From assembly GCA_004299845.1 (NCBI GenBank), contig CP036201.1:2294001-2358000 (forward strand): DNA of 64,000 nucleotides. Reading direction: 5' to 3'. The DNA is from Verrucomicrobia bacterium S94 (lineage in GTDB: Bacteria; Verrucomicrobiota; Kiritimatiellia; Kiritimatiellales; Pontiellaceae). The position numbers and the translations under genes are program-made. The notes beneath the pieces were generated by a model. The model worked only from the letters and a program-made list of their open reading frames with translations, was not told the DNA's origin and did not search any database. Below, piece by piece: positions 10,162-52,352 of this stretch; position 1 is the first letter of the stretch; each line of letters opens with the position of its first letter.

Positions 10162-11151
10162 TTATAGCAAATCCAACGGGCTCTTCACCTGATCCAGATC
10201 CTTATTCATCACATGCGTATAAATTTCCGTTGTTTTAACATCCGCATGCCCCATCAGCTCCTGCACCATCCGGATATTCGTCCCATTTTCCAACAGATGC
10301 GTCGCAAACGAATGCCGCAACGTATGACAGCCCGCACGTTTCCGGATACCACACCGCTCCACCGCCACCTTAACCGCACGCTGCAGCCCCGACTCCTTTA
10401 CATGATGCCGCATTTCCCGTCCACTTCGCGGATCCCTCGACCGCTTCTTCGACGGAAAAACATACTGCCAGCCCGGCTCACGACACGCATTCGGATACTT
10501 CCGAGCCAACCCCTCCGGAATATAAACCTCTCCGAAACCCTCCGCCAGATCCCGCTCATGCAACCGCAAAACCCGATCAATCTGATGCCCCAGTGCCGGC
10601 ACCACCGACTTCGGCAGCACCACCGTCCGATCCTTATTCCCCTTGCCGCCCCGGACAAAAACCTGCCCCTGCCCGAAATCCACGTCCTGAACCCGTAACC
10701 GGATACACTCCATCAACCGCAACCCGCAGCCATACAACAACTGAGCCATCAACTGATGCGTCCCCGACAGCTCCAACAAAAGCTCACGCGCCTCCTCCTG
10801 AGTCAGAACCGTCGGCGGCCGACGCTCCCGACGCCCCCGCGTCGGCGCAATCTCACCCAGCTCCATATCCAGCACCTCGCGGTATAAAAAAACAATCGCA
10901 TTCAACGCCTGACGCTGCGTTGAAGCGGAAACGCCCTCCTTCACCGCCAAATAACTCAGAAAACGTTCAATCTCAGCAGCTCCCATATCCCGTGGATGCC
11001 GCTTCATCTCATAAAAACGCAAATACCGCCGAATCCAGCTGCAATACGTCTGCTCCGTACGAATCGCATAATGATGAAATCGCAAAACCTCCTTCACCTG
11101 CTCCATCAACTTTAATTTTGGATCCGGACGAAACCGCGCACTGCCGCTCAT
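10162..11151 (-). CDS. intI: Integron integrase (tyrosine recombinase)
   Basis: A 329-residue tyrosine recombinase that recombines folded single-stranded attC with attI to insert, excise and shuffle cassettes. It has the N-terminal SAM-like DNA-binding domain (about 10-100) and the catalytic residues Arg in GCGLRLMECIRLRV, His-x-x-Arg in HTLRHSFATHLLENG, His in LMGHADVKTTEIYTHV, and the nucleophile Tyr in the same stretch. The IntI-specific extra helix between patches II and III is present (CREPGWQYVFPS), which separates it from XerC/D. The start at 11151 is chosen over 11163 because a G6 run lies just ahead. All catalytic residues are intact, so it is probably active. It reads away from the array, as is normal. 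Confidence 0.96.
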   Translation of the reverse strand: MSGSARFRPDPKLKLMEQVKEVLRFHHYAIRTEQTYCSWIRRYLRFYEMKRHPRDMGAAEIERFLSYLAVKEGVSASTQRQALNAIVFLYREVLDMELGEIAPTRGRRERRPPTVLTQEEARELLLELSGTHQLMAQLLYGCGLRLMECIRLRVQDVDFGQGQVFVRGGKGNKDRTVVLPKSVVPALGHQIDRVLRLHERDLAEGFGEVYIPEGLARKYPNACREPGWQYVFPSKKRSRDPRSGREMRHHVKESGLQRAVKVAVERCGIRKRAGCHTLRHSFATHLLENGTNIRMVQELMGHADVKTTEIYTHVMNKDLDQVKSPLDLL

Positions 11152-11317
11152 ACAACCCCCCAATATCTGATATCACCTATTTTTACCCATCTATATTGCA
11201 TATTAGACAAACAACTTTTACTTTTTTTGTCTTTATATATTCAATATTACGTTATTCAATAAATGCAAGTAAGACACAAGGTCATATCACCCCAAATAAA
11301 GAGAACCCGAACCAACT
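11152..11317. promoter_or_regulatory. AT-rich region between intI and first cassette; probable Pint and Pc promoters
   Basis: In known integrons this interval, with the start of intI, carries the integrase promoter and the cassette promoter. The stretch is about 75% A+T. A plausible plus-strand promoter is TTGCAT (about 11197) spaced 17 nt from TACTTT. I do not see a canonical enterobacterial LexA box (CTGT-N8-ACAG). Promoter calls are weak. Confidence 0.35.
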
Positions 11318-20899: not shown

Positions 20900-20912
20900 A
20901 GAAATAAAATGA

Positions 20913-22282
20913 GGGTCTTCTGCTGAATCTGTGGGTAAAAAATAATGATTAACGCACCGGGCAACTTATCTGTAATGTGTGGTCTACCAGAACTGCACAA
21001 CACAGAAGAGGTATGCCCGGTGCGAATCCAGACCCTACTCAACAGAGTTCATCCGCTCAAATCATTTGTTTACTCCGCCTGCCGTCTGGAACTGCGTAAT
21101 GCCGGTCCGGCGTTGGTGGCGGAAATCAGGCCCCGACTCAACGGCAAGGTGCTTTGCTCGGGGTGCGGCAAGCCAAGGAAATGCTACGACCGCCAATCGG
21201 TGCGGCAATTCGAATTCGTTCCGCTTTGGAATATTCCCGTCCAACTTGAATACCGAATGCGCCGAGTCAACTGCCCCGAATGCGGTGTGAAGGTCGAAAA
21301 GGTTCCGTGGGCGGATGGAAAGTCGCATACAACCAAAGCGTTTCAGCTGTTTCTTGCCCGCTGGGCACGCAGACTCTCGTGGAAGGAAACCGCCGAATCG
21401 TTCCACACAAGCTGGGACACGGTCTACCGCTCGGTCAAAGCCATTGTCAACTATGGGCTGGCGCACCGCAACCTTGACGGCGTGATGGCCATCGGCGTGG
21501 ACGAAATCCAATACGGCAAGGGACACCAATACCTTACCGTGGTCTACCAGATCGATGCGGGGATGCGCCGCCTGCTGTTCGTCGGTAAAGACCGTACGGC
21601 CAAAACCCTGCTGCGGATCTTCCGGGCCTTCGGCCGGGATCGCTGCGCCCGGCTGGAGTTCGTCTGCTCCGACATGTGGAGGGCCTACCTCAAGGTCATC
21701 GCTAAAAAGGCCCCGCAGGCATTGCATGTGCTCGACCGCTTCCACATCATTCAGCATCTGAACAAAGCCGTGAACCAGGTTCGTATCGACGAGGTCAAAC
21801 GCTTACGGCAGGAGGGCTGCGATGACGAGGTGCTTAAACATACGAAATACTGCCTGCTCAAAAACCCGGAAAACCTCACCGAGAAACAGGCACTCAAACT
21901 CAATGATGTGCTCACCTACGACCTGAAGAGCGTCCGGGCCTATCTGCTCAAGGAAAGCTTCCAGCTCTTCTGGAACTACACGAGCCCATACTGGGCAGAA
22001 TGGTATCTCAAGAAATGGAGCACCCGAGCCATGCGCTCGCGACTCGATCCTATGAAAAAATTTGTCGGAACGATCCGGCGGCATCAGCCGCTGATCCTGA
22101 ACTGGTTCAAAGCCAAGAAGGCCTATTCATCAGGCGTCGTCGAGGGCCTGAACCGCAAAGTAAATCTGGTAACGAGAAAAGCATACGGCTTTCGAAGCTA
22201 CGAAGTGCTTGAAATCGCCCTGTTTCACACGATGGGCGACCTCCCGGAGCCGGAAGCAACCCACAGATTTTGCTGAAGAGGC
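20913..22282 (+). mobile_element. ISL3-family insertion sequence, copy 1
   Basis: 1370 bp with imperfect terminal repeats (left GGGTCTTCTGCTGAATCTG, right complement GCCTCTTCAGCAAAATCTG). It is flanked by the 8-bp direct duplication TAAAATGA (20905 and 22283), the size expected for ISL3. It landed 20 bp inside c24, just ahead of its gene. Copy 2 at 25021 encodes an identical protein and I saw no nucleotide difference, so movement is recent. Confidence 0.93.
20945..22276 (+). CDS. tnpA: ISL3 transposase, copy 1
   Basis: 443 residues: N-terminal zinc ribbon (CSGCGKPRKC...CPECGV), helix-turn-helix (SWKETAESFHTSWDTVYRS), and a DDE core with GVDEIQYGKGHQYLTVV, CSDMWRAYL and the C-terminal SSGVVEGLNRKVNLVTRKA. 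Complete and apparently functional. Catalyses cut-and-paste movement of its own element. Confidence 0.93.
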   Translation: MINAPGNLSVMCGLPELHNTEEVCPVRIQTLLNRVHPLKSFVYSACRLELRNAGPALVAEIRPRLNGKVLCSGCGKPRKCYDRQSVRQFEFVPLWNIPVQLEYRMRRVNCPECGVKVEKVPWADGKSHTTKAFQLFLARWARRLSWKETAESFHTSWDTVYRSVKAIVNYGLAHRNLDGVMAIGVDEIQYGKGHQYLTVVYQIDAGMRRLLFVGKDRTAKTLLRIFRAFGRDRCARLEFVCSDMWRAYLKVIAKKAPQALHVLDRFHIIQHLNKAVNQVRIDEVKRLRQEGCDDEVLKHTKYCLLKNPENLTEKQALKLNDVLTYDLKSVRAYLLKESFQLFWNYTSPYWAEWYLKKWSTRAMRSRLDPMKKFVGTIRRHQPLILNWFKAKKAYSSGVVEGLNRKVNLVTRKAYGFRSYEVLEIALFHTMGDLPEPEATHRFC

Positions 22283-24994: not shown

Positions 24995-25020
24995 GTTGGC
25001 TTCACATAAAAATGAAAATT

Positions 25021-26390
25021 GGGTCTTCTGCTGAATCTGTGGGTAAAAAATAATGATTAACGCACCGGGCAACTTATCTGTAATGTGTGGTCTACCAGAA
25101 CTGCACAACACAGAAGAGGTATGCCCGGTGCGAATCCAGACCCTACTCAACAGAGTTCATCCGCTCAAATCATTTGTTTACTCCGCCTGCCGTCTGGAAC
25201 TGCGTAATGCCGGTCCGGCGTTGGTGGCGGAAATCAGGCCCCGACTCAACGGCAAGGTGCTTTGCTCGGGGTGCGGCAAGCCAAGGAAATGCTACGACCG
25301 CCAATCGGTGCGGCAATTCGAATTCGTTCCGCTTTGGAATATTCCCGTCCAACTTGAATACCGAATGCGCCGAGTCAACTGCCCCGAATGCGGTGTGAAG
25401 GTCGAAAAGGTTCCGTGGGCGGATGGAAAGTCGCATACAACCAAAGCGTTTCAGCTGTTTCTTGCCCGCTGGGCACGCAGACTCTCGTGGAAGGAAACCG
25501 CCGAATCGTTCCACACAAGCTGGGACACGGTCTACCGCTCGGTCAAAGCCATTGTCAACTATGGGCTGGCGCACCGCAACCTTGACGGCGTGATGGCCAT
25601 CGGCGTGGACGAAATCCAATACGGCAAGGGACACCAATACCTTACCGTGGTCTACCAGATCGATGCGGGGATGCGCCGCCTGCTGTTCGTCGGTAAAGAC
25701 CGTACGGCCAAAACCCTGCTGCGGATCTTCCGGGCCTTCGGCCGGGATCGCTGCGCCCGGCTGGAGTTCGTCTGCTCCGACATGTGGAGGGCCTACCTCA
25801 AGGTCATCGCTAAAAAGGCCCCGCAGGCATTGCATGTGCTCGACCGCTTCCACATCATTCAGCATCTGAACAAAGCCGTGAACCAGGTTCGTATCGACGA
25901 GGTCAAACGCTTACGGCAGGAGGGCTGCGATGACGAGGTGCTTAAACATACGAAATACTGCCTGCTCAAAAACCCGGAAAACCTCACCGAGAAACAGGCA
26001 CTCAAACTCAATGATGTGCTCACCTACGACCTGAAGAGCGTCCGGGCCTATCTGCTCAAGGAAAGCTTCCAGCTCTTCTGGAACTACACGAGCCCATACT
26101 GGGCAGAATGGTATCTCAAGAAATGGAGCACCCGAGCCATGCGCTCGCGACTCGATCCTATGAAAAAATTTGTCGGAACGATCCGGCGGCATCAGCCGCT
26201 GATCCTGAACTGGTTCAAAGCCAAGAAGGCCTATTCATCAGGCGTCGTCGAGGGCCTGAACCGCAAAGTAAATCTGGTAACGAGAAAAGCATACGGCTTT
26301 CGAAGCTACGAAGTGCTTGAAATCGCCCTGTTTCACACGATGGGCGACCTCCCGGAGCCGGAAGCAACCCACAGATTTTGCTGAAGAGGC
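25021..26390 (+). mobile_element. ISL3-family insertion sequence, copy 2
   Basis: Same 1370-bp element as at 20913, here flanked by the 8-bp duplication TGAAAATT (25013 and 26391). It is inserted after codon 3 of the c31 gene (ATG at 25012). Confidence 0.93.
25053..26384 (+). CDS. tnpA: ISL3 transposase, copy 2
   Basis: 443 residues, identical to copy 1 residue for residue; complete, with zinc ribbon, helix-turn-helix and DDE core as described there. Confidence 0.93.
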   Translation: MINAPGNLSVMCGLPELHNTEEVCPVRIQTLLNRVHPLKSFVYSACRLELRNAGPALVAEIRPRLNGKVLCSGCGKPRKCYDRQSVRQFEFVPLWNIPVQLEYRMRRVNCPECGVKVEKVPWADGKSHTTKAFQLFLARWARRLSWKETAESFHTSWDTVYRSVKAIVNYGLAHRNLDGVMAIGVDEIQYGKGHQYLTVVYQIDAGMRRLLFVGKDRTAKTLLRIFRAFGRDRCARLEFVCSDMWRAYLKVIAKKAPQALHVLDRFHIIQHLNKAVNQVRIDEVKRLRQEGCDDEVLKHTKYCLLKNPENLTEKQALKLNDVLTYDLKSVRAYLLKESFQLFWNYTSPYWAEWYLKKWSTRAMRSRLDPMKKFVGTIRRHQPLILNWFKAKKAYSSGVVEGLNRKVNLVTRKAYGFRSYEVLEIALFHTMGDLPEPEATHRFC

Positions 26391-28091: not shown

Positions 28092-28172
28092 CCAGAGCCT
28101 TGACCTTACCGTGAAAACGCCCGTCGATTCGGTCAACGTTTTGCGCACGGCAGGTCAGGCTTAACGTTGGAA
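28086..28172 (+). other. attC: attC of c32
   Basis: R'' AGCTAAC (contains the c32 stop), R' GTTGGAA (28166); arms GAGCCTTGACCTTACCGTG and CACGGCAGGTCAGGC. Confidence 0.8.
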
Positions 28173-28405
28173 CAACTCACTTGGGTGCATGAAATTTAAT
28201 GAAATCAGATTTGCAGACAATTCACCGGACAACCTGCTTTTCACCGGACTTCCTGCTGTGCCCGGACAACCTGCAGAGAATCGTAGAAAACCTGAGATAC
28301 TGACTTGCTCAAAACAGAGTCTTTTCCAACCAGTGGTTCGAGTTTACGGTGGCCGACGCCTGTTGATTAAGTGAAGTTTATGTTCACCGAAACTCACCCA
28401 TTAAC
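28166..28405 (+). repeat. c33: cassette R, tandem block unit 1
   Basis: s1 TTTTCAC, s2 TGTGCC, s3 AGAGAAT; open 61-codon frame; attC GTGAAGTTT variant. Confidence 0.9.
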
Positions 28406-28645
28406 GTTGGAACAACTCACTTAGGTGCATGGAATTTAATGAAACCTGATTTGCAGACAATTCACCGGACATCCTGCTCAGCAGCGGACTTCCTGCTGTG
28501 CCCGGACAACCTGCAATGAATCGTAGAAAACCTGAAATACTGACTTGCTCAAAACAGAGTCTTTTCCAACCAGTGGTTCGAGTTTACGGTGGCCGACGCC
28601 TGTTGATTAAGTAAAGTTTATGTTCACCGAAACTCACCCATTAAC
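28406..28645 (+). repeat. c34: cassette R, tandem block unit 2
   Basis: s1 TCAGCAG, s2 TGTGCC, s3 AATGAAT; first repeat unit changed to CGGACATCCTGC. Confidence 0.9.
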
Positions 28646-28886
28646 GTTGGAACAACTCACTTGGGTGCATAAAAATTTAATGAAATATGATTTGCAGACA
28701 ATTCACCGGACAACCTGCTTTTCACCGGACTTCCTGCTGTGCACGGACAACCTGCAATGAATCGTAGAAAACCTGAAATACTGACTTGCTCAAAACAGAG
28801 TCTTTTCCAACCAGTGGTTCGAGTTTACGGTGGCCGACGCCTGTTGATTAAGTAAAGTTTATGTTCACCGAAACTCACCCATTAAC
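28646..28886 (+). repeat. c35: cassette R, tandem block unit 3
   Basis: s1 TTTTCAC, s2 TGTGCA, s3 AATGAAT; leader GCATAAAAATTTAATGAAATATG, 241 bp. Confidence 0.9.
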
Positions 28887-29126
28887 GTTGGAACAACTCA
28901 CTTAGGTGCATGGAATTTAATGAAATCAGATTTGCAGACAATTCACCGGACAACCTGCTCTGCAACGGACTTCCTGCTGTGCACGGACAACCTGCAGAGA
29001 ATCGTAGAAAACCTGAGATACTGACTTGCTCAAAACAGAGTCTTTTCCAACCAGTGGTTCGAGTTTACGGTGGCCGACGCCTGTTGATTAAGTGAAGTTT
29101 ATGTTCACCGAAACTCACCCATTAAC
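28887..29126 (+). repeat. c36: cassette R, tandem block unit 4
   Basis: s1 TCTGCAA, s2 TGTGCA, s3 AGAGAAT; mixes the stop-type leader (TTAGGTGCATGG) with the open-type next segment (GAAATCAG), leaving the frame open. Confidence 0.9.
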
Positions 29127-29366
29127 GTTGGAACAACTCACTTGGGTGCATGAAATTTAATGAAATCAGATTTGCAGACAATTCACCGGACAACCTGCTC
29201 AGCAGCGGACTTCCTGCTGTGCCCGGACAACCTGCAATGAATCGTAGAAAACCTGAGATACTGACTTGCTCAAAACAGAGTCTTTTCCAACCAGTGGTTC
29301 GAGTTTACGGTGGCCGACGCCTGTTGATTAAGTGAAGTTTATGTTCACCGAAACTCACCCATTAAC
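29127..29366 (+). repeat. c37: cassette R, tandem block unit 5
   Basis: s1 TCAGCAG, s2 TGTGCC, s3 AATGAAT; open frame. Confidence 0.9.
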
Positions 29367-29606
29367 GTTGGAACAACTCACTTAGGTGCATGGAATTTAA
29401 TGAAACCTGATTTGCAGACAATTCACCGGACAACCTGCTCTGCAGCGGACTTCCTGCTGTGTCCGGACAACCTGCAGAGAAACGTAGAAAACCTGAGATA
29501 CTGACTTGCTCAAAACAGAGTCTTTTCCAACCAGTGGTTCGAGTTTACGGTGGCCGACGCCTGTTGATTAAGTAAAGTTTATGTTCACCGAAACTCACCC
29601 ATTAAC
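29367..29606 (+). repeat. c38: cassette R, tandem block unit 6
   Basis: s1 TCTGCAG, s2 TGTGTC, s3 AGAGAAA; frame broken by TGA. Confidence 0.9.
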
Positions 29607-29846
29607 GTTGGAACAACTCACTTAGGTGCATGGAATTTAATGAAACCTGATTTGCAGACAATTCACCGGACAACCTGCTCTGCAACGGACTTCCTGCTGT
29701 GCACGGACAACCTGCAATGAATCGTAGAAAACCTGAAATACTGACTTGCTCAAAACAGAGTCTTTTCCAACCAGTGGTTCGAGTTTACGGTGGCCGACGC
29801 CTGTTGATTAAGTGAAGTTTATGTTCACCGAAACTCACCCATTAAC
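29607..29846 (+). repeat. c39: cassette R, tandem block unit 7
   Basis: s1 TCTGCAA, s2 TGTGCA, s3 AATGAAT; same blocks as c11. Confidence 0.9.
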
Positions 29847-30087
29847 GTTGGAACAACTCACTTAGGTGCATAAAAATTCAATAAAATCAGATTTGCAGAC
29901 AATTCACCGGACAACCTGCTCAGCAGCGGACTTCCTGCTGTGCCCGGACAACCTGCTTGAACTCGAAGAAAACCTGAGATACTGACTTGCTCAAAACAGA
30001 GTCTTTTCCAACCAGTGGTTCGAGTTTACGGTGGCCGACGCCTGCTGATTAAGTAAAGTTTATGTTCACCGAAACTCACCCATTAAC
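29847..30087 (+). repeat. c40: cassette R, tandem block unit 8
   Basis: s1 TCAGCAG, s2 TGTGCC, s3 TTGAACT; leader GCATAAAAATTCAATAAAATC without ATG; attC spacer GCCTGCTGATT. Appears identical to c42 and c57. Confidence 0.9.
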
Positions 30088-30327
30088 GTTGGAACAACTC
30101 ACTTAGGTGCATGGAATTTAATGAAACCTGATTTGCAGACAATTCACCGGACAACCTGCTCTGCAACGGACTTCCTGCTATGCTCGGACAACCTGCAATG
30201 AATCGTAGAAAACCTGAAATACTGACTTGCTCAAAACAGAGTCTTTTCCAACCAGTGGTTCGAGTTTACGGTGGCCGACGCCTATTGATTAAGTAAAGTT
30301 TATGTTCACCGAAACTCACCCATTAAC
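30088..30327 (+). repeat. c41: cassette R, tandem block unit 9
   Basis: s1 TCTGCAA, s2 TATGCT, s3 AATGAAT; attC spacer GCCTATTGATT. Appears identical to c61. Confidence 0.9.
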
Positions 30328-30568
30328 GTTGGAACAACTCACTTAGGTGCATAAAAATTCAATAAAATCAGATTTGCAGACAATTCACCGGACAACCTGC
30401 TCAGCAGCGGACTTCCTGCTGTGCCCGGACAACCTGCTTGAACTCGAAGAAAACCTGAGATACTGACTTGCTCAAAACAGAGTCTTTTCCAACCAGTGGT
30501 TCGAGTTTACGGTGGCCGACGCCTGCTGATTAAGTAAAGTTTATGTTCACCGAAACTCACCCATTAAC
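30328..30568 (+). repeat. c42: cassette R, tandem block unit 10
   Basis: Same sequence as c40, closing the ten-unit tandem run that starts at 28166. Confidence 0.9.
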
Positions 30569-33402: not shown

Positions 33403-34863
33403 CACTGTCATCCCATAGAGGGCGAAAACCGCTGGTAACCGCCCGGTTTTGTTAAGGTTTTTGATCTCTGTTCCATATAGTCAGTTCCGATTTCCTGGTT
33501 ATGGGATAACAATGGCTCCTCGTTTTATGCATTTGGCTGTCCCACAGCATTCAGCCGAACCCCGGTAGAAACGCCTGTTCCGGGGCGGCGCACATGCGTC
33601 CGGGCGGTTTGGCTGTCCCATAGGATTTGAGCAGCGCATCGAGATCCCATCGCCGCCACAGCGACGCCCGCACTACAGTGAACAGCCGCTTGAAGCTGTG
33701 TTCCCATTCGTGCATGCACGCGAGGCTGCGCATAAGCAAATGGACAAGCAATCCCATCCACACCTGCCAGCGCACGGCGTTGGCGCTATGGCCAAGGAAG
33801 TCGCTGAGCTGGAGCGTCTGCTTGATTTCCTTGAAGAACACCTCGATGTCCCAGCGGCAGCGGTAGAGTTCGGCGACCGTCCACGCGCTCCACTCCAGAT
33901 TGTTGGTCATGAAGACCATCTCGACATCCTGACCGTTGATTTCAACGAGGGCCGCGACGCGACGCAACTCGCGGGGGTACGCCTCTTTCGATTTGTCGAG
34001 CGCCATCTCGATCACCTCGTCACAAAGGATGCGTTTGTGTTCGGTGGTTTCGAGCGTGCGAACCACATTGTATTGCATATTGTCCTTCGCGCGGCCAACC
34101 CACCAGATGCCGCGCTCCGTCAGCTCATGGAGATGCCTGAACTTGGTGTAGGCCTTGTCGAACACGGCAATTTCGCCGGGTTCGAGCCCGGCGCACAGCT
34201 CCTGCGCCTTCGTGCTGTCATGGTGCTTCGCCGTATCGATGATGGCGCATTGCGGAAGGAAGCTTTGCAGGTTCAGGCGCAAGTGGCACTTGGCCGCGGC
34301 CTTGCGGCGGCGGTGTTTCGCCCAGTCGATGCAGTTGGCCACCAATTGGATCGTGGTCGAGTCGAGCGCGTGGATCGTCTTGTTGAAGCGGCGGAGGTAT
34401 CCGCTGCGCACCTTGCGCTTCGCGAAGCCGGGCACCGTGTGCGTCAGGTGCTTCATCATGCCCCAGTAAAGCGCCTCGGCCATGTCCGCATTCCGGTTCG
34501 TGTTCGCGTGGCTCAGGCCGTTGCGCGACGGCGGCACCGCCGAACGAACCGTGGCGAGCGCCGAGGAGTTCATTTGGAGCGAGTCGCAGACGTCATTAAG
34601 CCCGAATGCATGCGAGAGGTGCGCGTACATCACCGAGACCACGTGGCTCCACGGCGTAAACGTCCTGCTTTGGGCGTCCACGCCATGCTCTTTCGCGAGC
34701 TTCGAGACCATGTGTCCCGGAATCATGTTGCACAGTTGTTTCAAGGTTGTATACCTATGTCCGGCTGGTTTGTGTTTTTGTCTCTGTTTTTTCATACCCT
34801 CCGAGTGGAGGATTTAGAGCTCACAAGCCAGCCTTTTCGTTTTAGAGCTATGGGATGACAATA
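33403..34863 (-). mobile_element. IS4-family insertion sequence
   Basis: About 1461 bp. Ends share TGTCATCCCATAG in inverted orientation, and the flanks repeat ATGTTGGAA (33394 and 34864), a 9-bp duplication. Inserted in the c49 PEP-CTERM gene. Confidence 0.88.
33551..34795 (-). CDS. IS4-family transposase
   Basis: 414 residues: N-terminal DUF4372-like region (LKQLCNMIPGHMVSKLAKEHG), DDE core with ALDSTTIQL, FDKAYTKFRHL and the IS4 signature YRCRWDIEVFFKEIKQTL (Y-2-R-3-E-6-K). Complete. Promotes movement of its own element. Confidence 0.92.
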   Translation of the reverse strand: MKKQRQKHKPAGHRYTTLKQLCNMIPGHMVSKLAKEHGVDAQSRTFTPWSHVVSVMYAHLSHAFGLNDVCDSLQMNSSALATVRSAVPPSRNGLSHANTNRNADMAEALYWGMMKHLTHTVPGFAKRKVRSGYLRRFNKTIHALDSTTIQLVANCIDWAKHRRRKAAAKCHLRLNLQSFLPQCAIIDTAKHHDSTKAQELCAGLEPGEIAVFDKAYTKFRHLHELTERGIWWVGRAKDNMQYNVVRTLETTEHKRILCDEVIEMALDKSKEAYPRELRRVAALVEINGQDVEMVFMTNNLEWSAWTVAELYRCRWDIEVFFKEIKQTLQLSDFLGHSANAVRWQVWMGLLVHLLMRSLACMHEWEHSFKRLFTVVRASLWRRWDLDALLKSYGTAKPPGRMCAAPEQAFLPGFG

Positions 34864-35425: not shown

Positions 35426-36382
35426 TTAGTTGGTTAACTCCCGGATTTTGCTCCGCTTTATTCGGCGCTCTTCCCGGGCTTTCGATAACTTCATTTCCCG
35501 CTCTTCAAATATTTCTTTCTGCTTCCCATCCAGCATTTGCCCGGGTGTGATAAATCCAAGCGAACTGTGTAAGCGGATCGTGTTGTAATAGGTAACATAT
35601 TCATCAATATTCCGACGAGCTTCATCCTGAGTTTCTGCACTTCTGGGACGAATGCATTCGGTTTTCAGACTTTTATGATAACGCTCAAGCTTACCGTTGC
35701 TCTGCGGATAATACGGGCTGGTTCTCACATGCGTCATGCCTGTCAGACGAATAAACTCCTTGAAATCCCGGGCGATGAACTGCGGGCCGTTATCACTTAT
35801 AATTCTCGGAGCCGCATCAGGATATTTTTCTCTCGCACGCTGAAGAATCAGCTCTACGTCGGCCTCTTTCATCTGTTCCTTGAGCTCATAGTGAACGATC
35901 AACCGGCTGAATCCATCGAGTACCGTGCACAGATAATAAAAGGTGCCGCCACAGTTGATGTAGGAAATATCAATATGCCAATGAGCATGGGCTTTTAATG
36001 GCTGAGTGAAGCCGGTTCCCTTCCTGGACGGGCGTACGTTCCGATTGTTCAGCATCCCTGCTTTTGAAAGGACTCTGTACACCGTGGCCGGACTGACCGC
36101 AACAACATCCGCATCCATCATCATATAGCAGCACCTGCGATATCCATCAAACGGATGCTCTTTATACCAGTTAACAATCTTTTCGGTTTCATTCGCCAGC
36201 AACCAGTTGTCCCGAGGTATTTTACCATTGTGCTCATTGAGTTTTCCGTATCGTTTACGCCAGTCATAAAACCGGCTTTTACCAAGAGATGCTTTAGCAA
36301 GAAGCCAGCTCAGGGCCAGCCCGGTCTGTTCCCGGATTTCAAATACGTCATCAATAATTCGATCCCGCAGATCCGGCTCCAC
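35426..36382 (-). CDS. IS3 transposase, OrfB (integrase catalytic part)
   Basis: 318 residues with the DDE integrase core: WHIDISYINC, SDNGPQF and GKLERYHKSLKTE. An HTH_21-like segment precedes it (EHPFDGYRRCCYMMMD). It lies in the -1 frame relative to OrfA and is probably made as an OrfAB fusion by slippage on the A9 tract at the end of OrfA. Confidence 0.92.
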   Translation of the reverse strand: MEPDLRDRIIDDVFEIREQTGLALSWLLAKASLGKSRFYDWRKRYGKLNEHNGKIPRDNWLLANETEKIVNWYKEHPFDGYRRCCYMMMDADVVAVSPATVYRVLSKAGMLNNRNVRPSRKGTGFTQPLKAHAHWHIDISYINCGGTFYYLCTVLDGFSRLIVHYELKEQMKEADVELILQRAREKYPDAAPRIISDNGPQFIARDFKEFIRLTGMTHVRTSPYYPQSNGKLERYHKSLKTECIRPRSAETQDEARRNIDEYVTYYNTIRLHSSLGFITPGQMLDGKQKEIFEEREMKLSKAREERRIKRSKIRELTN

Positions 36383-40169: not shown

Positions 40170-40257
40170 GCCTAACCAGAGGCTTGACCTTACCGTGAAA
40201 ACGCCGGTTGATTCGGTCAAAGTTTATGCGCACGGCAGGTCAGCCTTAACGTTGGAA
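40170..40257 (+). other. attC: attC of c56
   Basis: R'' GCCTAAC, R' GTTGGAA (40251); arms GAGGCTTGACCTTACCGTG and CACGGCAGGTCAGCC. Confidence 0.8.
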
Positions 40258-44256: not shown

Positions 44257-45891
44257 CTATGCAGCCTCGCGAGATGCTGATAAGGTCTTGGATGATGGAG
44301 CAGGTTCGGCGTTTTCCCGGCGCGCCTTCCATTGGGCTGGCGTCCAGTCGGGGGCATCCCGACTGTCCATGGTCGGCAGGGCGTCCAGGACTTCTCTCAG
44401 ATAGTCGGCGGGGTTGATATCGAGTTTGCGACAGGTTTCGACCAGGCTGTAAATGACTGCGCTGGTCTGTCCGGAGTCCGGGCTGCCGAAGAACAGGAAG
44501 TTCTTCTTGCCGATGGCCGTGGGCCGGATGGCATTCTCCACGAGGTTGTTGTCGATTTCCAGGCGGCTGTGATCGACATAATGAGTGAGGCTGTCCCACC
44601 GGCTCAGAGTGTAGCGAATGGCTTCGCCGAGTTTGCTTTTCGGGAGCTGACGTGTCTTTTCTCGCTCCAGAATGGTTTTCAGTTTTTCCAGGATGGGTGA
44701 TGCGTCCTTCTGACGAACTGCGGATCGGTCGAGTTCAGGCGTCTTCCGCAGGTCGGTTTCGATGCGGTAGAGCTTGGCGATGTGTTTGACGATTTTGCGC
44801 GAGATGGAGTCGCCGGCCTCTACGAACTTGCGACGTGCATGGGCCCAGCACCCTGCATGGATGATGGATTCTTTTTCTTCAGTGTGGTCCGGTTTATTCA
44901 ACCAGCATGGATACGCTTCGTAGCCGTCGCTTTGCAGATAGCCGGAAAAATCCGTGAGCATTCCGTCCAGACACTCATTGGCCCGGCTTGCGAACCATTC
45001 GAACAGCGCGCCGACCCCCGGGCTGTGATAAACCCATAGGTATCCGTTAGGACAGTAGTCCTTTTGCTTGTCCTGATGCTTGATAACAGTTTCGTCGGCC
45101 TGAATATATCCACTTTGTCGAATTTCATTTCGAAGGGATTCATAAATCATCGTCAGCCAATTGGCCGTCAGATACATCCAGTTGCCCATCGTTTTCCGAC
45201 TGACTTCGATATCGTACCGATACTTTAAAATCCATTCCTGTCGATACAGGGGAAGATGGTCGCAGTATTTGTTCAGAATAATCTGTGCGATGAGTCCGGC
45301 TGAGGCATAGCTGTTTTGAATCAGTCGCTCCGGGGCCGGGGCAATCACCGGAGCGGCTTCACGATCATCGATCAGGACATATTTTTCGCGGACAATAATA
45401 CGACGAAAGTAACGGGACGGAACCACGTCGAGTTCTTCAACCGTTTCTTCGCCAATTTTCTTATAGAGCTCCGGTTCTTCCTGTACTTCATCCGGAATGA
45501 TCACAACCCGTTCAACAGGCAGATCTTCCGGCACCCGTTCTTTCAGTGGTTTACGTTTCCCGCGACGAGAGTCTTTTGGATCCTCCGGTTGCGGCATCTC
45601 ATCCGCCGACTCTTCGGCCTCCTCCAGCTGCTTCTGCAATGCGTAGAGTTCTTCAAAGGCCAGCTCCATCTGATCCGGACTCAGTTTTTCCGAACTGCGC
45701 CCGAACAGTTTCTTCAGCAGATACTGAACCTTCTCTTCCAGGATTTTTATTTTGGATTTAAGCTGCTCACTTTCGGATTCGAGCGCTTCAAAAGAAGCGC
45801 TCTTCTCCAGCAGCAGATCGAAGTTTTCCCGATTAAAATCCATGGGATGCATTATACCAAAACCCGGCGGAAAATCTGATAGAAACTTCAA
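44257..45891 (-). CDS. tnpC: IS66 transposase TnpC
   Basis: 544 residues: N-terminal Leu-rich coiled coil (LKSKIKILEEKVQYLLKKLF), zinc-finger-like linker, DDE transposase core (YIQADETVIKH, GCWAHARRKF, NNLVENAIRPTAIG) and the C-terminal IS66 segment. The true start may be one of the internal Met codons near 45843-45852. Confidence 0.92.
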   Translation of the reverse strand: MKFLSDFPPGFGIMHPMDFNRENFDLLLEKSASFEALESESEQLKSKIKILEEKVQYLLKKLFGRSSEKLSPDQMELAFEELYALQKQLEEAEESADEMPQPEDPKDSRRGKRKPLKERVPEDLPVERVVIIPDEVQEEPELYKKIGEETVEELDVVPSRYFRRIIVREKYVLIDDREAAPVIAPAPERLIQNSYASAGLIAQIILNKYCDHLPLYRQEWILKYRYDIEVSRKTMGNWMYLTANWLTMIYESLRNEIRQSGYIQADETVIKHQDKQKDYCPNGYLWVYHSPGVGALFEWFASRANECLDGMLTDFSGYLQSDGYEAYPCWLNKPDHTEEKESIIHAGCWAHARRKFVEAGDSISRKIVKHIAKLYRIETDLRKTPELDRSAVRQKDASPILEKLKTILEREKTRQLPKSKLGEAIRYTLSRWDSLTHYVDHSRLEIDNNLVENAIRPTAIGKKNFLFFGSPDSGQTSAVIYSLVETCRKLDINPADYLREVLDALPTMDSRDAPDWTPAQWKARRENAEPAPSSKTLSASREAA

Positions 45892-47985: not shown

Positions 47986-48032
47986 TTCGGTCGATGGTTT
48001 ATGCGCACCGAAAGTCACCCATAACGTTAGGG
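47944..48032 (+). other. attC: attC of c68, core split by IS5
   Basis: R'' AGCGAAC, R' GTTAGGG (48026). The IS5 begins at the fifth base of the core. The original core was probably GTTAGCA, rebuilt by joining across the TA duplication. Confidence 0.75.
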
Positions 48033-48861
48033 CCTGTTAACACTTATGCTTGCAATATAAAACAAGTCTGGTACTATCTTTATATGAAAATAACCGAAGC
48101 CCAGTACGACAAAATCGCCCATGTGTTGCCGGTGCAGCGAGGCAACGTAACTCTTTCCAATATCGAGGTTTTAAACGCCATTCTCTATGTGGCCGAGCAC
48201 GGCTGCAAGTGGCGCGGACTCCCCTCTCGCTTTGGAAACTGGCACACCATTTACACCCGCATGAACCGCTGGGCAAAAAAAGGCGTTCTCGCAAACGTGT
48301 TCGATGAACTGCAGAAACAGCAGCTCGTGAAGATCAACCTTGAAGCGGTGTCCATCGACAGCACCTCGATCAAGGTGCATCCCGACGGAACCGGCGCATT
48401 AAAAAAAACGGCAAACAATCCATAGGAAAGTCCCGTGGTGGCTGGACTACCAAGATCCATTTGATCGCCGCCAACGCCCGGATCGCACTGGATTTCTCCC
48501 TTTCCCCGGGACAAGCCGGTGATGGTCCGGAAGGTCGTAAACTACTGGCCAGCTGGGGCGAGGATCGCCCTGAAGGCATTTGCAATGTATTGATGGATAA
48601 GGCCTACGAAGGAGATGAAACCCGGCAGCTGGTGTTCGATCTTGACCTCACTCCCGTTGTGCCGCCCAAGGCCAATCGACTTGAACCTTGGGAATACGAC
48701 AAGGAAATGTACAAGCGGCGCAATGAAGTGGAGCGCCTGTTCCGCCGCTTAAAAGGATTCCGTCGAATCTTCTCCCGCTTCGAGAAACTCGACGTAATGT
48801 TCTGTGCGTTCATCCACTTCGCCCTGACTGTGGACATGCTTCCGTTGTGTTAACACGCCCT
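48030..48861 (+). mobile_element. IS5-family (IS427-like) insertion sequence
   Basis: 832 bp. Ends GGGCCTGTTAACAC and (complement) GGGCGTGTTAACAC. The flanks share TA (48028 and 48862), the short duplication of the IS427 group. It is inserted in the attC core of c68. Confidence 0.88.
48084..48853 (+). CDS. IS5/IS427 transposase in two frames (programmed frameshift)
   Basis: The first frame (48084-48425) covers the N-terminal DUF4096-type part (LNAILYVAEHGCKWRGLPSRFGNW) and the first catalytic Asp (VSIDSTSIKVH). The second (to 48853) covers GGWTTKIHLIAANARI, MDKAYEGDE and the Glu in RRNEVERLFRRLKGFRR. They join by slipping on the A8 tract near 48400 (GALKK then NGKQSIGKSRGG), as is usual in this group. 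The full product would be about 256 residues. Confidence 0.9.
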
Positions 48862-49522: not shown

Positions 49523-49610
49523 TGCTAACCAGAGGCTTGACCTTACCGTGAAAACGCCCGTCGATCCGGTCGAAGTTTATGTGCACGGCAGGTCAGCCTT
49601 AACGTTCATA
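49523..49610 (+). other. attC: attC of c69, core interrupted by IS110
   Basis: R'' TGCTAAC, then arms GAGGCTTGACC and GGTCAGCCTTAACGT. Right after AACGT the sequence becomes IS110 (TCATATGG...). The other half of the core (TGGAAC) appears at 51355. Confidence 0.75.
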
Positions 49611-49991
49611 TGGCTGAAGTTTTGTCAACAGGGCAAAAAAATATAAGACCCACTTTTTTCTCTCTTTGAAAAAGGGCCGGGCGATCGGAATCGGAGGCGG
49701 CCATGGAACCATTATCACAGGGTGATACGGTTGTTACCCGTTTACAGTGTATGCTCATATTCGTGGACTTTTCAATCCGCCCGGCCTCGGCCGGAGCGAA
49801 TGGCACGTTCGTTTAAACAAACGCACTACCGACAGTATCTTTGATCACCGCGGCCTTGTACCCTTAGTCTGGGTATCGAGTGCTGGCCGTACTCAATGAA
49901 GCAGTAGCGACGTAACTCATAACGTTATCAAGGACCGGCCTCTGTATTTCCAGTGAGCACACCTCCGATTCGATCATCTGTAAAATATATA
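49606..49991 (-). ncRNA. Candidate bridge RNA region of the IS110/IS1111 element
   Basis: 386 bp without a credible gene downstream of the transposase. Recently described IS110-family recombinases use a structured non-coding RNA encoded beside the gene to recognise donor and target. The plus strand here contains CTCATAACGTTATC (near 49917), close to attC right ends of the type CTCACCCATAACGTT. That would fit a target-binding guide, but structure has not been computed. The small reverse frame at 49606-49806 looks like chance. Confidence 0.4.
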
Positions 49992-51242
49992 TTACCTCAC
50001 AAGGTGAGCCAGATCCCATAGATAGGAGGAGAGCTCACGTGCGATGGCTACTTGAATTTTATTGTGATGCACTTTTCTGAACATCAATTTATACCAACGG
50101 TTATTAAGTCGGTTCTGGGCGTGCCAGGAGAGTGCTCGCACTTCGCGGCTCAATCCTTCCTGGCGTTTGGAAAGTGCTTTGGAAACTTTTGGCGGCATAC
50201 GGTAATGACCGGCACATTCAATGAGCATCCAGCGCGCATGCGAATTACCGCACTTGGTGATATTTCCCTGCCGGCGATGGTTACCCGTTGTGTTTTCTTT
50301 GGGAACCATTCCCGGAAATCCCATGAACAGTTTCGGATGAGCGAACCGCAGAAAGTCCCCCACCTCGGCGGTGAGCACCATCGCGGCGGTCGTCCTGAAT
50401 CCCCGGAAGCCCATCAACGCCTCAACGAACGCGCGGCGGCTCCAGGTCTGCAGCAGCAGTTCCATCTGATGATCAATCCGTCCGACCTGCGCCGTAGCGG
50501 CATCGATTCGAAGCAGATATTCCTCCATTACCATTTTCTGCGCACGCTCCGGCATCACCAGTTCGCGCAGATAACGCATATGCGCCTCGGTCCAGCCGGC
50601 TTTCCCGGTATAGCGGTATCCATTGCGCAGCAGAAAACCCGAGAGCTGCTGCTTCCCGCGTTTGGTATAGCGGTATCCATTGCGCAGCAGAAAACCCGAG
50701 AGCTGCTGCTTCCCGCGTTTGGTATAGCGGTATCCATTGCGCAGCAGAAAACCCGAGAGCTGCTGCTTCCCGCGTTTCACCTCATTCACCGCATCGGTGC
50801 GGCCGCGGCAGACATCGCGGATCACCTCGTCCTCCACATTCGGGATATGAACGGAAATCAGTTCACCGGCCCGATGCAGCCGCGCGAGTTTGCATGCATC
50901 CAGCCGGTCGGTTTTAACTTTATCTCCGGCGCGTTCCGGAATTTTCGACGGAGCAATCACCTGGCAGTCAAATCCGAGTTTAATCAGGCGCCGCGCCAAT
51001 ACAAATCCCGTCGGCCCGGCCTCATAGCAGAGGTGCAGTTGCTCCTTCGTCAGGTTGTTATTTTTCATGTACCTCCGAATGAAGGTCAGTGTCCGGTTCA
51101 TATCAGCCGAACATTTTCCGATGAGCTCTCCCCTGCAACGCCCGTCAAAGGCTGAACCGAATACATTTTCATCTTTGTGAACATCAATTCCTACGTATAC
51201 TTCTTTCATGGCGTGCTCCTTTGGTTTGAATGCTTCGTTCAT
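49992..51242 (-). CDS. IS110-family DEDD transposase with a triplicated 19-residue segment
   Basis: 416 residues: N-terminal RuvC-like DEDD domain (YVGIDVHKDENVF, CYEAGPTGFVLARRL, KTDRLDACKLARL) and C-terminal Tnp_20 domain with the catalytic Ser region (FRGFRTTAAMVLTAEVGDF, FPGMVPKENTTGN). Between the two, the normally single linker segment GKQQLSGFLLRNGYRYT occurs three times in tandem (three 57-bp units at about 50606-50776). It adds 38 residues to a coiled-coil region, so activity is uncertain. The start may be the downstream MKEVYVG codon at 51209. Confidence 0.9.
   Translation of the reverse strand: MNEAFKPKEHAMKEVYVGIDVHKDENVFGSAFDGRCRGELIGKCSADMNRTLTFIRRYMKNNNLTKEQLHLCYEAGPTGFVLARRLIKLGFDCQVIAPSKIPERAGDKVKTDRLDACKLARLHRAGELISVHIPNVEDEVIRDVCRGRTDAVNEVKRGKQQLSGFLLRNGYRYTKRGKQQLSGFLLRNGYRYTKRGKQQLSGFLLRNGYRYTGKAGWTEAHMRYLRELVMPERAQKMVMEEYLLRIDAATAQVGRIDHQMELLLQTWSRRAFVEALMGFRGFRTTAAMVLTAEVGDFLRFAHPKLFMGFPGMVPKENTTGNHRRQGNITKCGNSHARWMLIECAGHYRMPPKVSKALSKRQEGLSREVRALSWHAQNRLNNRWYKLMFRKVHHNKIQVAIARELSSYLWDLAHLVR
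50606..50776 (-). repeat. Three tandem 57-bp units inside the IS110 transposase
   Basis: The 57-bp block that begins GGTATAGCGGTATCCATTGC on the plus strand is present three times head to tail without visible difference. Each unit codes for 19 residues, so the frame is kept. Confidence 0.92.
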
Positions 51243-51354
51243 TCAATGTTGGATAGGCTCCGGCTCGCCGGAGCAGCCCACGGAACCCCCGAGGGCACGC
51301 CTCTTAATTTAAAGGGAAAATGACCGAGGCGCCATCAACTTCAGGCATAAGGTC

Positions 51355-51506
51355 TGGAACAACTCACTTGGGTGAATGAAATTTAATGAAACCTGATTTG
51401 CAGACAATTCACCGGACAACCTGCTCTGCAACGGACTTCCTGCTGTGCACGGACAACCTGCAATAAATCGTAGAAAACCTGAAATACTGACTTGCTCAAA
51501 ACAGAG
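51355..51506 (+). repeat. c70: terminal cassette R, truncated and lacking attC
   Basis: s1 TCTGCAA, s2 TGTGCA, s3 AATAAAT. Homology to the other R copies starts at TGGAAC (the GT is on the far side of the IS110) and stops at CAAAACAGAG, just before the attC would begin. This marks the distal end of the integron. Confidence 0.88.
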
Positions 51507-51581
51507 CAGCTTTTGCAGCGCGCATTTTTCTGTAAAGATAAATGATGTTTAATGTCAGGATAATACAGAAAGGGTGAATTT

Positions 51582-52352
51582 ATGATCCGACGCAGATCGT
51601 TTCTGGCAGGTACGCTCAGTCTACCTTTTTTCCCCGGCTTATCGCACGCGAGCGAACCGACTGAAAAACGACTCTCTGCATTTGAGCCGGGGGAGCAACT
51701 GAGGTACAGCCTGGGCTGGCAGTTTATTGTGGCGGGCTATGCAACGCTGGAGGTGCTGCCTGATGAAAATCAGGATGGGGTCAAATTGCGCAGTTTCCAG
51801 ATGCAGGCCAGAACCCGGAAAATCGTAGATTCCATCTTCAAAGTGCGGGACACGCTTTCCTCACTCACCACCTATGATGTGGACCGTTCGATGGGCTATT
51901 CAAAAATTCAGCGCGAGGGAAAAACAAAGCGGGATATTACGGTGGATTTTGACTGGGAGAATATGGAGGCCCATTATTTTGAAGCCCGGAAGCAGAAGTC
52001 GGTGGTGACGCCGGTTCAGGCAAATACACTGGATCCGCTTTCGGCCTTTTATTTTGTGCGCCGGCAGGAACTTGAAGTGGGTAAAACCATTGAAGGTCCG
52101 ATGACGGATGGGAAACGCTGCAAAATTGCGCGGATCGAGGTGAAAGAACGTAAAACCATAAAAGTAAATGGAAAAAAGTATGACTGCTTTCGTCTGAAGC
52201 CGGATATTTCCGATGTTGGAGGCGTTTTTGAAAAAAGCAAGGATGCTAAAATTGAGATCTGGTGCACGGCGGATCACCGGCACATTCCGGTCCTGCTGAA
52301 GAGCAAAGTGGCGGTCGGCAGTTTTAAAGCGGAACTGATCCCGGATGAATAA
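51582..52352 (+). CDS. DUF3108 exported protein
   Basis: 256 residues. N-terminus MIRRRSFLAGTLSLPFFPG looks like a Tat-type signal (RRRSFL). The mature part follows DUF3108: FEPGEQLRYSLGWQFIVAGYATLEV, VRDTLSSLTTYDVDR, DPLSAFYFVRRQELEVG and RHIPVLLKSKVAVGSFKAEL. The family folds as a beta-barrel-like periplasmic domain of unknown role, perhaps envelope-associated. AGAAAGGGTGAATTT precedes the start. First chromosomal gene after the array. Confidence 0.85.
   Translation: MIRRRSFLAGTLSLPFFPGLSHASEPTEKRLSAFEPGEQLRYSLGWQFIVAGYATLEVLPDENQDGVKLRSFQMQARTRKIVDSIFKVRDTLSSLTTYDVDRSMGYSKIQREGKTKRDITVDFDWENMEAHYFEARKQKSVVTPVQANTLDPLSAFYFVRRQELEVGKTIEGPMTDGKRCKIARIEVKERKTIKVNGKKYDCFRLKPDISDVGGVFEKSKDAKIEIWCTADHRHIPVLLKSKVAVGSFKAELIPDE

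Follow-up and report, generated by a model that had tools for sequence, protein, structure and literature searches.

The integron array and the inserted element

The window analyzed here (the whole 64-kb stretch of DNA, G000:C1:2294001-2358000) contains a chromosomal integron of a Pontiella-type member of the Kiritimatiellota. An integron integrase is encoded on the minus strand at 10162-11163 (TIGR02249, 448 bits; cut-off 265), and ~67 attC R' cores found in the window form an array extending from 11.6 kb to 49.6 kb, with 61 of the ~67 cores reading TAACGTT. A family of 240-bp cassettes without an obvious gene (D3) is represented by ~24 copies, at 12714-47274 and 51355-51506, including ~10 consecutive copies at 28161-30566; the start of this cassette reads GGAACAACTCACTT(A/G)GGTG. 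Several other insertion sequences are located within the array, namely two near-identical ISL3 elements (20902-22276 and 25010-26384), an IS66 element (44257-45891), a DDE_Tnp_1 element (33551-34795) and, by appearance only, an IS3-like (35426-36382) and an IS5-like (47994-48853) element.

The distal part of the array is occupied by an IS1111-type element (49607-51355, minus strand). It is preceded by its target attC (49524-49606, plus strand), which is intact up to AACGTT and whose arms, AGGCTGACC and AGGCTTGACC, pair with each other (z 3.5), and followed by the start of one more 240-bp cassette (51356-51506, plus strand; D3, 98% identity). Similarity of this last cassette to its family stops at ~51506 and no attC follows (51356-51600), so that the array ends at the element. 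The left flank (...GGTCAGCCTTAACGTT) ends at 49606, and the right flank (GGAACAACTCACTTGGG), starting at 51356, is the beginning of a cassette with ~23 further copies in the array. Uninterrupted copies of the same junction are present in the window, e.g., at 40248 (...GGTCAGCCTTAACGTTGGAACAACTCACTTAGG), which means that the insertion divided AACGTT|GG and removed nothing. A short target for the element would read, e.g., CACCCAACGTTAAG.

Because a T is found at both 49606 and 51355, the flanks and undisturbed junctions make two placements equally possible (49606-51354 or 49607-51355), of which the second is favored by the rule of 7- and 3-bp extensions in IS1111 elements (PMC11187229). Thus, the initial annotation, which had described an IS110/IS1111 element at 49606-51354 exactly splitting an attC core between GT and TGG, was right about the type of the element and about the split core, but the boundary is better drawn one shared T further, as AACGTT|GG rather than GT|TGG. 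The left end (51337-51355, minus strand) is composed of the 7-bp extension AGACCTT and the subterminal repeat ATGCCTGAAGTT, and the same end is observed in ~20 relatives and relics; the right end (49607-49621, minus strand), also found in relatives, is composed of the subterminal repeat AACTTCAGCCAT and the 3-bp extension ATG. The subterminal repeats are 12 bp long with one mismatch, as expected of IS1111 elements (11-13 bp, with 7- and 3-bp extensions). A TTGACA motif near the right end (49623-49628, minus strand), conserved in the right ends of relatives, is a candidate -35 box, possibly of a circle-junction promoter by analogy with ISEc11 (PMC11187229); a sigma-70 scan found promoters to be no commoner than in shuffled sequences.

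The transposase

The element encodes a transposase of the IS110/IS1111 type (open reading frame of 416 aa, 49992-51242, minus strand; alignment A2), which combines the DEDD (RuvC) domain PF01548 with the Transposase_20 domain PF02371, both above cut-off, and matches the NCBIfam model NF033542 'IS110 family RNA-guided transposase' (194 bits; cut-off 140). Its closest relatives with solved structures are IS621 (the best match) and ISCro4. Homology to relatives (alignment A2) suggests that translation probably starts at the ATG at 51209-51207. The threonine of the TG motif falls inside the range reported for IS1111 transposases (PMC11187229), and the longer non-coding region (385 bp, vs. ~112 bp upstream) is located downstream of the gene, as is typical of IS1111.

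A peculiarity of the gene is a 57-bp unit present in three identical tandem copies between the regions encoding the RuvC and Tnp domains (50607-50777, minus strand; +38 aa). Relatives contain one unit, as does a partial copy elsewhere in the genome that is 99% identical (G000:C1:10002-10855). The triplication is absent from relatives, and the window copy may therefore be inactive. In the extreme case, it would be a dead relic, with a site once chosen by RNA, which is now blocked by the repeat together with a long extra hairpin of ~40 bases in the predicted donor-binding arm of its RNA. The intact reading frame, DEDD residues, TG motif and both ends of the element argue against such a loss, which we still consider a substantial possibility, if distinctly short of an even chance.

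Relatives of the element and their targets

Elements or fragments with the same left end are found in many genomes of the order, and the right ends of such relatives are all flanked by AACGT-like sequences (AACGTT, AACGTC, AACGTA, AACGTG and, once, AATGTT). Fragments with only the left end are commoner in the order than whole elements, and a number of relics keep the left end and a part of the gene without the right end (G000:C1:9106-12129, 2899128 and 3663936, as well as L023, L025, L028, L030, L055 and L060).

In a tree of 84 transposases, the window element belongs to a clade of 24 rows (support 100/100), whose members come from Kiritimatiellota and Verrucomicrobiota, with single bins representing other phyla. 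Clade members with a defined right end are located at an attC core, with one possible exception (L113; flank AAGGAACC), which is the specificity for attC that characterizes the IS1111-attC group. Of the 24 attC-labelled sites, 14 had pairing attC arms beside the right end (p <=0.05), vs. 1 of 18 other sites, in a crude test that missed sites appearing attC-like by eye (e.g., L090). Outside of this clade, three proteobacterial IS1111 elements (L109, L154 and L161) are also located at attC ends of the AACG type; in L154, the target AACGCTTG and the guide GCAGGCGTT represent a separate change at position 5.

A predicted guide RNA in the non-coding region

The region downstream of the transposase gene (49607-49991, minus strand) is predicted to carry a guide RNA, as suggested by conserved blocks (alignment A1) and by a fold of the whole region that is better than in shuffled sequences (z -3.47). 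The attC-like stretch pointed out in the initial annotation is indeed present in it, as CTCATAACGTTATC at 49916-49929 on the plus strand (GATAACGTTATGAG on the transposase strand). It includes a putative right-target guide, TAACGTT (49921-49927, minus strand), complementary to AACGTTA adjoining the right end. Within this element alone, the 7-nt target match is no better than chance: when the non-coding region was shuffled 5000 times, such a match arose in 490 cases (~10%).

The comparison between elements is far more informative. A wider search with an alignment query yielded 80 loci (a single-protein search of genome contigs gave no matches), and from these and earlier loci we have drawn 45 non-redundant elements whose ends and targets could be defined. 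The longest matches of the reverse complement of the right target in the element's own non-coding region, summed over all 45 elements, reached 276 vs. 209.5 (sd 6.0) for permuted targets, a value attained in 0 of 100,000 permutations, which ignore relatedness. The same holds for the elements with non-attC targets only (143 vs. 104.3, sd 4.4; 0/100,000). Among attC elements aligned in register, with guides read by eye, the bases at guide positions 5-8 change along with those of the target (58 vs. 39.4; 0/100,000), also with one row per distinct guide (45 vs. 29.4; 1/100,000). All four positions from 5 to 8, taken singly, show an excess, and agreement is down to chance level at position 9, which sets the length of the right-target guide at ~8 bases. 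For example, the guides TTGACGTT in L062, GAGACGTT in L063 and AAACGTT in L089 correspond to the targets AACGTCAA, AACGTCTC and AACGTTT, respectively, with bases past the common AACGT also matched. The palindrome TAACGTTA masks the strand that is read in the window, and it is the non-palindromic L062 and L063 that identify the guide as complementary to the strand carrying the transposase gene. The guide is not always fully matched, as three copies in one genome (G032) share one guide at the sites AACGTC, AACGTC and AACGTT. Nor does the right-target guide alone suffice to single out attC, since only 52 of the 89 TAACGTT(G/C)G sites in the genome (by pattern count) are inside the array; hence, the left guide must contribute.

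This putative left-target guide, TACCC (49867-49875, minus strand, including the subsequent AGAC, identical to the first bases of the left end), is located on the other side of the target loop. Left-target guides, read by eye, match their own targets above permuted ones (91 vs. 58.2, sd 4.6; 0/100,000), with the signal coming mainly from the three bases adjoining the junction and being weaker among attC elements (33 vs. 25.5); the guide of the window element matches its own site only at the two bases adjoining the junction. In most elements, the left-target guide is followed by AGA, TGA or AGG, the start of the element's own left end. These bases resemble the handshake guides of IS621, on the other strand, with one or two independent changes in support of this likeness. 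An analogous extension of the right-target guide, checked by eye, gave no fit, the bases after ACGTT being A, C or G, unlike the right end.

A third putative guide, ATATGAG (49754-49760, minus strand), combines ATATG of the right end with AG of the left end, i.e., the junction of a circularized element. Donor guides, read by eye, match their own joined ends (174 vs. 135.4, sd 4.5; 0/100,000), and the variants ATATG-AG, ATATC-AG, AGATC-AG and ATGAG correspond in each case to the junction of the right and left ends of that element; for the window element alone, the 7-nt donor match is only at the ~10% level. A tentative right-donor guide, CAAAG (49839-49843, minus strand), may pair with CTT of the left end; this assignment was made by eye only, from AGG opposite CCT in L045/L061 and AAG opposite CTT in others. 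Thus, of the two guides in a donor loop of the IS621 type, the one that would read the right end at the circle junction is matched statistically, and the one that would read the left end by eye only. For the target, guides for both strands vary with their sites, as in seekRNA and bridge RNA.

A consensus fold from six and eight close relatives places the target guides in a conserved structure. The predicted target-binding arm (49845-49944, minus strand) has outer stems of the GGCC/GGCC and CCCTT/AAGGG type and an inner stem, which carries a variable hairpin; in the internal loop between them, the right-target guide occupies the 5' side and the left-target guide the 3' side. Over 16 named pairs in alignment A3, 93% of the cells are paired and four pairs are changed on both sides; the covariation score of 0.286 (vs. 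0.196 shuffled) was attained once in 500 shuffles. For the window RNA taken singly, the minimum-energy fold of its target arm is no better than in shuffles (z 0.18), so that a single-sequence fold is uninformative here and the structure rests on comparison. The predicted donor-binding arm (49721-49849, minus strand) has an outer GGTGA/TCACC stem, its inner part being partly resolved. An Rfam search of the element returned nothing above threshold.

These observations support the initial proposal, according to which the attC-like stretch, if located in a target loop of a bridge RNA, would explain the targeting; as a check, it called for a two-loop RNA of the minus strand, with loop bases matching AACGT/TGG and the element ends. 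A conserved internal loop of the target arm and the outer stem of the donor arm emerge from the comparison, although the single-sequence fold of the target arm does not add to it. TAACGTT and ATATGAG fit the right target and the joined ends, respectively, but the left guide fits two bases only; the arm complements its own right target across relatives, and the stretch accounts for the right half of the targeting only.

Proposed mechanism and alternatives

Overall, the computational evidence makes it very likely that the IS1111-type element finds attC by means of an RNA guide. Transcription through the transposase gene would run on into the downstream non-coding region, giving rise to a guide RNA (seekRNA/bridge RNA). 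On the 5' side of its target-arm loop, TAACGTT would pair with AACGTTA on one strand of the attC R' core, and on the 3' side, TACCC-A would pair with the other strand beyond the insertion point; a second arm would read the junction formed by the two ends in the excised circle (ATATG|AG). The transposase would then recombine the circle and attC at a shared A, placing the element directly after AACGTT, always in one orientation. The anatomy of the element, the position of its target, three guides varying with their sites and a conserved predicted fold are established by comparison between related sequences. From published relatives we infer that the RNA is made and bound, that the intermediate is a circle, and the chemistry of the reaction; activity of the window copy is likewise presumed.

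The target could be recognized in another form, as a folded single-stranded attC hairpin rather than double-stranded DNA. Integron recombination acts on attC in the form of a folded bottom strand. Potentially folded sites (REP, attC) are also used by several IS1111 elements (PMC11187229). The left-target guide, however, reads bases of the next cassette that are outside of the hairpin and on the other strand, and guides for both strands are what is expected for double-stranded targets, which renders RNA-guided insertion into a hairpin improbable. We consider it very improbable that TAACGTT is a chance match and that the transposase protein itself reads AACGTT or the attC hairpin: the window element does match at the 10% level only, and AACG, common to all clade targets, could be read by a protein, but guide and target positions 5-8 co-vary between elements, and unrelated targets are accompanied by unrelated guides at the same place and in the same layout. 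Finally, its likeness to the attC right ends of the array (CATAACGTT) might suggest that the stretch is a captured piece or remnant of attC without a targeting role, a hardly credible view given that all relatives have a guide at the same place of the conserved fold, that only ~8 bases fit (with position 9 at chance), that relatives with other targets have non-attC guides there, and that relatives without any target match at this place are not the rule.

RNA-guided insertion just past AACGTT, the preferred reading, has a further consequence. The attC hairpin and the G^TT crossover are left whole, and the element comes to lie at the start of the cassette that follows. Should the integrase still accept AACGTT-CAT, the element could, from what is generally known of integrons, travel with this cassette as cargo; insertion past the crossover point would thus provide a testable route for the spread of insertion sequences within gene cassettes. 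Joining these threads, we tentatively envision, as something just under an even chance, a separate old IS1111 clade (mainly of Kiritimatiellota and Verrucomicrobiota) programmed for the attC R' core, with its mobility as cassette cargo provided by the integron integrase and with a left-guide handshake on the strand opposite to that in IS621. The proposed mechanism would provide a base-by-base account of the recurrent insertion of one family of mobile elements into integrons, extending RNA-guided attC targeting to lineages far from the ISPa21-type element and to the other end of the site. The natural guide-target pairs (~8 guide bases on the right and ~3 on the left) represent a data set for programming IS1111 systems.

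Comparison with known systems

The guide order deduced here is the same as in ISEc11, ISKpn4, ISPst6 and ISPa11, for which it was established in published experiments (PMC11187229). With these IS1111 seekRNA elements, the window element shares the subterminal repeats with 7- and 3-bp extensions, the non-coding region downstream of the transposase gene, the GL-P----S(t)G motif, and a first guide for one target strand with a second guide for the other (PMC11187229). It differs from them in belonging to another lineage and having another target, and its putative donor-junction guide is described here by comparison. As in IS621 and the IS110 bridge RNA (PMC11208160, PMC11208158), there are predicted target- and donor-binding loops, with two guides in the target loop and, tentatively, two in the donor loop, and a predicted reading of the joined circle ends. 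Unlike in the window element, the IS621 RNA is encoded upstream of the gene, its guides have the reverse strand order and long subterminal repeats are absent (PMC11208160, PMC11208158); the handshake bases follow the top-strand guide in IS621, whereas here it is the bottom-strand guide that is followed by bases identical to the left end.

Attraction to attC has a precedent in the members of the IS1111-attC group found in class 1 and Pseudomonas integrons (ISPa21, ISKpn4, ISPst6 and ISPa25), which, like the window element, are attC-specific and inserted in one orientation. This group was reportedly described by Tetu and Holmes and by Post and Hall. ISPa21 in plasmid pME-1a splits the left end of attC (GCTAACAATTCA|TTCAAGCCGAAG) and thereby breaks it, whereas the window element is inserted at the R' core and leaves attC whole. 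The transposase of ISPa21 forms a very long branch in the 84-transposase tree and is only distantly related to the window clade, so that the window element shares neither the attC position nor a close kinship with ISPa21, the only described group member used in this comparison. The literature searched contained no paper naming both Kiritimatiellota and integrons. Thus, the proposed mechanism is that of the published seekRNA/bridge-RNA systems, and what appears to be new, as compared with ISPa21 only, is a well-supported clade, mainly of Kiritimatiellota and Verrucomicrobiota, targeting the R' core of attC.
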